Assembly (NCBI GenBank): GCA_021781455.1
Contig: JAJXWV010000011.1
Coordinates: 1-52,899, forward strand
Origin: Acidobacteriota bacterium
Lineage (GTDB): Bacteria > Acidobacteriota > Thermoanaerobaculia > Gp7-AA8
Direction: 5' to 3'
DNA: 52,899 bases
Below are positions 19,873 to 21,087 of this stretch, in pieces. The number at the start of each line of letters is the position of its first letter. Position 1 is the first letter of the stretch. The position numbers and the translations under genes were made by a program. The notes under the pieces were generated by a model, which saw only the letters and a list, made by a program, of their open reading frames with translations, searched no databases and was not told where the DNA came from.

Positions 19873-21087
19873 ATGATGACGCCCCGCCTCAGCTTCGACC
19901 TTCTCCACACCGACGGCGCCGCACGCCGCGGTCGGATGAGCACACCCCACGGCGTCATCGAAACGCCCGTGTTCATGCCGGTCGGCACCCTGGCCTCGGT
20001 GAAGGGACTCACGACCGAGCAGTTGAAGGAGCTCGGCTCGAGGCAGATCGCAGGAGAGGGACGGCCTGCGATCTGCGATCTGCCCTCTGCGATCTCGTTC
20101 GGTCCCCGGATCATCCTCTGCAACACCTACCACCTGATGCTCCGGCCGGGGGTCGACCTGCTCGAGCAGCTCGGCGGCGTGCACCGCTTCATGGGATGGG
20201 ACCGCGCCGTCCTGTCGGATTCGGGCGGATTTCAGGTCTTCTCTCTCTCCGCGATCCGCAAGGTGCGGGAGGAGGGCGTGGAGTTCCGCAGCCATATCGA
20301 CGGCTCCGCGCATTTTCTGTCGCCCGAGGTTTCCATCGATATCCAGTCGCGGATGGGTGTCGACATCGCCATGGCCTTCGACGAGTGTCCCGAATCGGGA
20401 CTCTCGCGCGACGAGGTTGCGACGTCGATGGAGCTGACGCACAGGTGGGCCCGGCGCTCGCTCGCAGCGCGGGATGCCTGGAGTGAGCAGAGCGCCGCCC
20501 GCGGCCCGGCGCTGTTCGGCATCGTGCAGGGGGGCGTGCACCCCGATCTGCGGAAGCGCAGCGCCGGTGAGATCGGGGAGATGCCGTTCGACGGGGTGGC
20601 CATCGGCGGCGTGTCGGTCGGCGAATCGAAGAGTGAGATGCTCGAGATCCTGCGCGGGACTGCGCCGCTCCTGCCGTCCGGGAAGCCGCGGTATCTGATG
20701 GGGGTTGGGACGCCGGAGGATCTATTGGACGGGGTGGAGGCGGGAATCGACATGTTCGACTGCGTGATGCCAACGCGGAACGCACGGAACGGCTCGCTCT
20801 TCACCAGTGGTGGGAAGGTGGCGATCAAGAACGCCAGGTACATCGCGGACGAGGGGCCGCTCGATCCCGGCTGTTCGTGCCTGACCTGCCGGACGGTTTC
20901 CCGCGCCTATCTGCGGCACCTCTATGTCAACGGTGAAATCGCGGCCATGGTCTACAACACAATCCATAACGTCTCGTTCTACCTTGACTTGATGGAGGGT
21001 ATCCGGCAAGCTATCGCGTCCAATTGCCTGGGGTCTTTCCGTGACTCCTTCCTGTCGCGGATGTCGAGCGGGGAGACCGGGTCCTGA
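19873..21087 (+). CDS. tgt: tRNA-guanine transglycosylase (queuine/preQ1 exchange) with in-frame repeat insertion
   Basis: 404 residues against a usual ~375-385. The enzyme swaps guanine-34 for preQ1 in GUN-anticodon tRNAs. Family blocks are [45 protein letters not shown] (substrate Asp), [41 protein letters not shown] (nucleophile Asp) and the zinc cluster CSCLTC...H. Between ELGSR (~57) and IILCNTYHL (~82), where relatives run directly on, about 22 residues ([22 protein letters not shown]) are encoded by a CAGATCG-type heptamer element. It begins the tgt-yajC-secD-secF operon. ATG 19876 is an equal alternative start. Confidence 0.95.
20038..20103. repeat. CAG-heptamer element inserted in frame in tgt
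   Basis: GCAGATCGCAGG at 20043-20054 pairs perfectly with CCTGCGATCTGC at 20065-20076. The right arm continues with inverse units to 20096 in the same order as loci 1 and 4 (CAGATCG, then a variant CAGAGGG, then CAGATCG twice). The insertion boundaries are inferred from the tgt family; about 66 nt, a multiple of 3, are added. Confidence 0.85.

Follow-up and report, generated by a model that had tools for sequence, protein, structure and literature searches.

The tgt locus and its insert

The window, that is, the whole stretch of 52,899 nucleotides analysed here, comes from an acidobacterial draft genome of 4.88 Mb which was rated 100% complete and 0% contaminated and is designated G000 in the family comparisons. 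The Pfam-named genes lolA, tgt, yajC, secD and secF followed each other in line, confirming the position of tgt beside secDF given in the initial annotation. The features at the locus, all on the forward strand, were the following:

19108-19785, +: lolA, the upstream neighbour of tgt (PF03548)
19873-21087, +: tgt, tRNA-guanine(34) transglycosylase, 404 aa, intact ORF
20038-20103, +: in-frame, heptamer-derived insert of 66 nt / 22 residues (S56-G77), without counterpart in 10 of 16 family Tgts
20043-20054, +: left hairpin arm GCAGATCGCAGG, the reverse complement of 20065-20076
20065-20084, +: right hairpin arm CCTGCGATCTGCGATCTGCC with two pairing registers (sequence and fold)
20066-20095, +: heptamer array CTGCGAT, 4.3 copies, 82% matches (TRF)
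21081-21160, +: heptamer hairpin (GTCCTGA...TCAGGAC) at the 3' end of tgt (TRF; fold -47.2 kcal/mol)
21169-21483, +: yajC (PF02699)
21508-23076, +: secD (PF22599, PF21760, PF02355)
23094-24311, +: secF (PF02355, PF07549)

The product of tgt is a bacterial Tgt by its equivalog score (TIGR00430, 481.5 bits versus a cut-off of 306.75), its fold and its catalytic Asp and zinc-ligand positions; it also matched PF01702 with 493.8 bits and was present in one copy (a single match in the 4.88-Mb genome). Residues D116, D296, C336 and H365 were invariant and C334 and C339 nearly invariant in a 62-row Tgt alignment, in line with the earlier view that both Asp residues and the zinc cluster are intact. Counting along the alignment equated the window's residues with D102, D280, C318, C320, C323 and H349 of the Zymomonas enzyme, which we take to be its catalytic Asp (D102, D280) and zinc ligands (the remaining four). 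The enzyme is under purifying selection, since dN was well under dS in two pairs of genomes: approximately 0.15 versus 0.80 between G000 and G001, aligned insert residues included, and 0.13 versus 0.46 between G009 and G016.

The 22 extra residues noticed earlier between ELGSR and IILCNTYHL were located exact to the base at 20038-20103 by alignment with relatives: the window Tgt has them between L54-G55 and P78, and the empty family alleles read L-G-P (in one case L-A-P) ahead of I-I-L. The insert is equally placeable at 20035-20100, because a G is repeated. It was stop-free and in frame and was composed of CAGATCG/CGATCTG heptamers folding as a hairpin, so that its description as a CAGATCG-type hairpin element also held: GCAGATCGCAGG at 20043-20054 pairs with CCTGCGATCTGC at 20065-20076, and a second register is formed by 20073-20084. 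The fold of the insert region amounted to -34.6 kcal/mol, a value that has no shuffle control. The 7-nt self-match of this degenerate insert was 0.46, the highest among the tested periods of 3-10. A search of the genome with TGCGATCTGCNATCTGC at up to two mismatches gave 183 and 180 matches, i.e., 363 near-matches of the unit, and the reversed pattern gave none. The insert is extra DNA rather than an inherited loop, and the heptamer of which it is composed is abundant in the genome that carries it. Rfam at gathering scores found two tRNAs and a cobalamin riboswitch in the whole window and nothing at the insert.

Occupied and empty alleles in the family

The Tgt block from PVGT to NTYHL was read in 109 of 110 Tgt loci (L030 gave no block); L031-L060, which are repeat loci and not Tgt, were left out, and L061, which duplicates the G005 contig, was kept out of the non-family count. 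The block was 31-33 residues long in 102 of the 109 loci and longer in seven, reaching 53 in the window. Genomes G004 and G007 had no Tgt match and stand outside the 16 family Tgts; G004 lacked a match though it is rated 97% complete, which may mean either loss or an assembly gap. The uninterrupted alleles whose existence in sister genomes had been raised by the initial annotation were found in ten of the 16 family Tgts: these had the standard 31 residues, and none of the ten carried any loop at the site. The remaining six were occupied at an identical codon junction by the following inserts:

G000: 22 residues, unit CAGATCG
G001: 31 residues, CAGGACT with degenerate CAGCACT
G002: 30 residues, CAGCACT plus CAGTCCT
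G011: 15 residues, CAGCACT
G009: 14 residues, CAGCACC/T
G015: 14 residues, CAGTCCT

Period 7 was the best of periods 3-10 in each of them. The insert of G001, the only same-genus relative of the window's genome compared, differs from that of the window. Outside the family, a longer block occurred in one of 92 loci (L068, positions 1520-1690), a Nitrospirae Tgt with an unrelated, palindromic and not clearly heptameric insert of 25 residues at the same codon junction.

The units of the tgt arrays match each genome's own stock. Thus, CTCAGTCCTCAGTCCTCAG was present in 6 of 18 genomes and was most numerous in G015 (92) and G002 (64), the two that have it in tgt; CTCAGCACTCAGCACTCAG was present in 10 of 18, with none in G015, and was counted 8 times in G001, 31 in G011, 53 in G002 and 19 in G009, all four of which carry this unit, perfect or degenerate, in tgt. 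Having the unit is not enough for occupation, since tgt was empty in G003 (62 CAGCACT-type matches) and G013 (18).

On a three-gene tree (Tgt, E1 and HrpB; 16 rows, 1889 columns) the occupied/empty pattern took at least four gains or losses, as it also did on Tgt alone (four); three of the four changes were forced by well-supported branches, and trees with one change appeared in 0 of 200 bootstraps. Sister pairs differed in occupancy, namely occupied G009 and empty G016 (support 100/99) and occupied G015 and empty G008 (99/99). Clustering of the occupied label on the tree was not significant, with 100 of 500 shuffles as low. The tree leaves gains and losses unseparated: four changes also result if a single old insertion was lost three times and its units changed. 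Such a single old insertion at this codon, inherited, lost in some lineages and with its units replaced via slippage and conversion from other arrays, is a possible explanation that we nevertheless doubt. It agrees with the shared codon junction of all six occupied Tgts and with the L-G-S that precedes the insert in G000, G001 and G009, and the Nostoc trnL intron offers a parallel, where one heptad class is described as having repeatedly replaced another at one stem (PMC4476775). However, the unit sequences differ, a similar scatter was seen at a site in the E1 gene (see below), and the well-supported sister pairs that differ in tgt occupancy mean that several clean losses would be needed. Inspection by eye for TSD and for shared ends of the MITE kind showed no ends common to the Tgt inserts; a possible TCGG repeat at the junctions of the window's insert was not consistent in the others.

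Partner arrays in the lolA-tgt leader

In G011, G009, G002 and G015 the short lolA-tgt leader held an array whose reverse complement was the in-gene array, with complementarity scores of 20, 21, 30 and 31, respectively, over 27-33 nt; the maximum in shuffled controls (100 dinucleotide shuffles each) was 12, and G000, G001 and all 11 empty alleles scored 6-8. A leader partner array thus accompanied 4 of 6 occupied versus 0 of 11 empty alleles (one-sided Fisher p 0.0063). The leader heptamers of these four relatives follow lolA, at its stop codon or no more than about 12 nt from it, and in G009 the two arms share a variant unit, with CCCGGCAC in it, at matching register. With a spacing of 136-183 nt, the arms bracket roughly the first 45-60 codons of tgt. 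Candidate GTG starts were present upstream of the conserved part in G011, G009 and G002, within the leader arm or directly at its end; the likely tgt start codon of these three lies in or beside the leader array. The tgt of G015 (L009 / L167, approximately 1600) had no ATG, GTG or TTG before the conserved part, and its open frame starts inside the leader heptamers with CTG as the second codon. Pairing is not universal, since G000 had no leader partner and no partner arm of the G001 insert was found in the 14.7 kb searched.

The inverted arms might have been selected as an RNA structure controlling tgt translation, with the long stem spanning the start region. This would be consistent with the arm pairing present in the minimum-energy folds of all four relatives and with the findings on the tgt start region described above, but the leader arm was missing from G000, G001 and the 11 empty alleles, and similar inverted arms flank other genes. 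Moreover, comparison of the arms by eye showed stem mismatches left unrepaired in G009, G002 and G011, and such uncompensated mismatches speak against a maintained RNA structure. Overall, RNA control appears rather unlikely as the reason for the arrays, and the 27-33-nt stem across the translation start region in four relatives is open to a reporter experiment.

Repeats elsewhere in the window and the family

The hairpin at the 3' end of tgt supplies the gene with its stop codon, TGA at 21085-21087, from its left arm. Three more heptamer hairpins of the window, with no strand assigned, were:

458-556: CAGATCG-type hairpin, intergenic, loop of 45 nt
4996-5098: CAGATCG-type hairpin, loop of 44 nt, at the 5' end of a called amidohydrolase gene
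41881-42120: the window's largest heptamer hairpin, CAGACCG / CGGTCTG types

Other repeats observed in the window included an octamer array, AGGTCACC, with a nearby inverted copy just upstream of the cobalamin riboswitch RF00174 (6391-6427 and 6488-6690), non-heptamer inverted repeats of the GTCACTCTGAGCCGGCGGAGC type (43087-43273 and 8698-8897) and a dispersed inverted repeat of the CATCCCGAGCGTCAGCGAGGGATCTGGG type in at least two places (28673-28845 and 52549-52667).

In 319 kb of family DNA, 30 arrays had period 7, six period 8, four period 9 and 23 period 14, and periods 4-6, 10-13 and 15 had none; period 7 and its multiple 14 therefore dominate the range of 4-15. No period-7 arrays were present in 20 kb of the same-order outgroup G018 or in 51 kb from 13 same-class loci, and 514 kb from 79 other bacteria contained 11. 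The idea that all heptamers share an invariant CAG was given up, because the reversed control GAC equalled or exceeded it in frequency in several genomes. The arrays avoid genes: within 21 stretches, 16 picked for tgt and four for repeats, 14 of 65 arrays were inside genes called by a home-made caller, though 88% of the DNA was called coding; the 14 include five tgt arrays (G001, G011, G009, G002), and some of the remainder are probably over-long gene starts. The same stretches held 26 inverted array pairs. In 9 of 12 stretches picked for inverted pairs the left arm was located at or just past a forward stop codon, and likewise in 9 of 12 the paired arms were outside well-scored called genes or overlapped only their ends; L228 and L238 had arrays within a called gene, and L230 had them within one of weak score. 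The order of variant units was mirrored between the arms to a modest extent only, with a mean of 24.2 versus 22.4 after permutation (19 informative pairs). The population shares the properties of heptameric simple-sequence repeats of the STRR, TAACTGA or GGGAATC kind: 7-nt tandem units, many and mostly extragenic copies, and inverted pairs at stop and start codons.

In-frame repeats were also found in the genes for an E1 dehydrogenase, an HrpB-type helicase and a P-type ATPase. The E1 genes had them at two places, differing between genomes (L188 1501-4230; L190, L191, L193, L196). Site 2 of E1, before RVAVSF, was read in 15 genomes (the gene was unmatched in G007, without a readable ORF in G006 and merely fragmentary in G013) and comprised nine residues in seven of them, 12 and 14 in two, and 32-69 in G000, G001, G014, G017, G005 and G015. 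In G014, G017 and G005 the DNA of the long variants was a GGGAGTC/GACTCCC-type pair whose two arms were both in frame, whereas it was CGCCGTT-like in G015, an GGTCACGA octamer in G000 and degenerate in G001; at least three changes were needed on the three-gene tree, a scatter similar to that of tgt. Site 1 was occupied by a CCCGACA-type pair in G000 only (15 genomes read). The HrpB-type helicase of G000 contained four CAGATCG units (RSQIADRRSQ) and that of G001 a different, non-heptameric insert, the two lying at two sites (L208; L224); the first site was empty in 14 of 16 genomes, G007 and G008 having no match at the cut-off. Finally, the P-type ATPase of G000 (L177 12697-15840) had two heptamer arrays in linkers beside its YHS and HMBD metal-binding domains.

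Dispersal as a REP-like element by a RAYT / Y1 transposase was considered as well. PF01797 proteins were encoded in 17 of 18 family genomes, with 14 such proteins in the window's genome, and G016, the sole genome without Y1, had few heptamer matches (25). The Y1 number showed a weak relation to the sum of CAG- and GAC-type heptamer matches (Spearman 0.41, p 0.09, 18 genomes), but no correlation with the CAG-type matches alone (Spearman 0.11, p 0.66), and G009 combined one Y1 match with 490 heptamer matches. Furthermore, heptamers lay within about 1.5 kb of only two of the eight Y1 loci read, and the unit sequence was not conserved. These data speak neither clearly for nor clearly against spread by Y1, which is given a low probability.

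Reading frames and predicted structure

Because 7 and 3 have no common factor, a heptamer array encodes one cyclic seven-residue peptide whichever frame is read. A perfect array therefore has all of its frames open or none of them, and what must be a multiple of three is only its total length. The cyclic peptides computed were QIADRRS, DLRSAIC, STQHSAL, SPQSSVL and RTQDSGL. Both strands are open in 50% of all possible 7-mers, one strand in 37% and neither in 13%. Units CAGCACT, CAGTCCT and CAGGACT have a single open strand, the only one present in tgt; CAGATCG has two, and the window's tgt contains its hairpin in full. A stop rule of this kind was noted earlier by MacGregor for TAACTGA, one strand of which has stops and the other a repeating heptapeptide (PMC4679880).

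The open frame and the conserved flanks suggest that the peptide is translated. Its removal by ribosomal bypass or splicing might be imagined for a hairpin within a conserved gene, but would not require the length divisible by three and the freedom from stops seen in all six family inserts, and we find it extremely doubtful. An assembly chimera, the other early concern, is very unlikely, since different heptamer arrays occupy this codon in five other assemblies, within an otherwise intact enzyme; despite the draft state of the genomes and one TAG in the tgt match of G003, practically no weight remains for a chimera or a pseudogene, given six separate genomes occupied at one junction with open frames under purifying selection, and a window genome that is complete and uncontaminated by its rating and has one Tgt copy.

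The AlphaFold model computed with 62 sequences had a mean pLDDT of 90.1, with residues 59-62 and 64-73 below 50 (a run with 15 close sequences reached pLDDT 52 and was discarded). It superimposed on Zymomonas mobilis TGT with Z 55-56 and an rmsd of 1.1-1.4 Angstrom and placed the insert between helix 48-53 and strand 80-83. Mapping of the insertion site on the Zymomonas Tgt, as suggested in the initial annotation, put the junction at residues 62-63 by alignment, i.e., at the end of the loop-helix motif 47-62, which is reported to shield the dimer interface (PMC5395182). According to the model, the Tgt fold is probably kept and the insert probably forms a disordered loop just past the dimer-interface helix alpha-1. 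This raises for Tgt the question of whether 14-31 probably disordered residues adjoining that helix can be neutral.

Proposed origin of the insert

Taken together, these data make it quite probable that the insert is an intragenic member of the genome-wide heptamer population, which would spread by copying, be tolerated in a permissive loop and be translated there as a disordered loop. The heptamers often come in inverted pairs, in which an array, a loop and an inverted array follow one another, and such pairs bracket intergenic regions. Arrays would arise by copying, most simply by slippage together with template-switched (snap-back) synthesis that writes a distant inverted copy; the template switching is suggested by the inverted pairs and the modest mirroring of variant units only. 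Copies arriving in genes would be purged unless they are divisible by three in length, have no stops on the sense strand and lie in a permissive loop of the protein. The loop concerned in Tgt would be the one that connects helix alpha-1, part of the loop-helix motif at the dimer interface, to the next strand, where the peptide, translated as a disordered loop, would have little effect on the fold and could be lost and regained over time.

More speculatively, and in our view unlikely, a sequence-blind process defined by its period might write distant inverted heptamers in this family and so go on supplying conserved enzymes with frame-indifferent peptides of seven-residue period, starts and stops at the same permissive sites, one loop being colonised independently in one lineage after another.

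Comparison with known repeat systems

The likeness to Rickettsia palindromic elements (RPEs) drawn in the initial annotation holds for the outcome and not for membership. Both kinds of palindromic repeats are found in frame within conserved genes and between genes (PMC2229807, PMC10969869), here in tgt, E1, HrpB and the P-type ATPase, and in the one tested case, an RPE-bearing gmk, enzyme activity was reported to be kept (PMC2229807, PMC10969869). However, RPEs are described as families of 105-146 bp (or about 150 bp) with a conserved peptide (PMC2229807, PMC10969869), in contrast to the Tgt inserts of 42-93 nt, which share no consensus and are defined by period 7; the combination of 105-146 bp, a shared consensus and terminal inverted repeats was not found in any of the six.

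Heptamer repeats are already known from several bacterial phyla, mainly between genes, as far as the passages available of the reports cited here tell. The GGGAATC and GGGGA(C/T)T heptamers of Xanthomonas and Nostoc, described by Rehm and colleagues in a study on G-quadruplexes (PMC4692102), resemble the acidobacterial ones in their 7-nt units, many copies and close inverted convergent pairs, and in preferring positions just past stops or before starts, with matching strand polarity and lower frequency in coding regions (PMC4692102); akin to them, GGGAGTC arrays are present in the acidobacterial family too. What differs here is the presence of many units per genome and family and the recurrent in-frame occupation of one enzyme loop, 'in-frame' not being a word of the available text of that study (PMC4692102). 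The TAACTGA heptamers of Beggiatoaceae are likewise located near start codons, with ten sets inside ORFs in reverse orientation, but are described as one main unit, and the passages available compare no recurrent conserved-enzyme site across relatives (PMC4679880). In the P6b stem of the Nostoc trnL intron, paired heptad arms occupy a fixed gene site and their unit classes are replaced independently, as in tgt, although that stem belongs to an RNA intron and is not protein-coding (PMC4476775).

In the open-licence literature, i.e., without preprints and subscription work, no title among the matches listed named in-frame heptamer inserts in Tgt or in Acidobacteriota. As far as this literature tells, three observations are new: the recurrent presence of different heptamers, in frame, within one enzyme loop, the leader partner arm reaching the tgt start region, and the parallel cases in other conserved enzymes of the family. 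The repeats extend the same loops of conserved enzymes again and again, showing how repeat DNA can go on adding pieces to working proteins. With occupied and empty alleles side by side, the family provides a natural test set for repeat DNA becoming protein, and also for why period 7, coprime with 3 and giving one cyclic peptide in every frame, is favoured. The Tgt inserts belong to the heptameric repeats, resembling RPEs in their outcome and the heptads of the Nostoc trnL intron in their dynamics.
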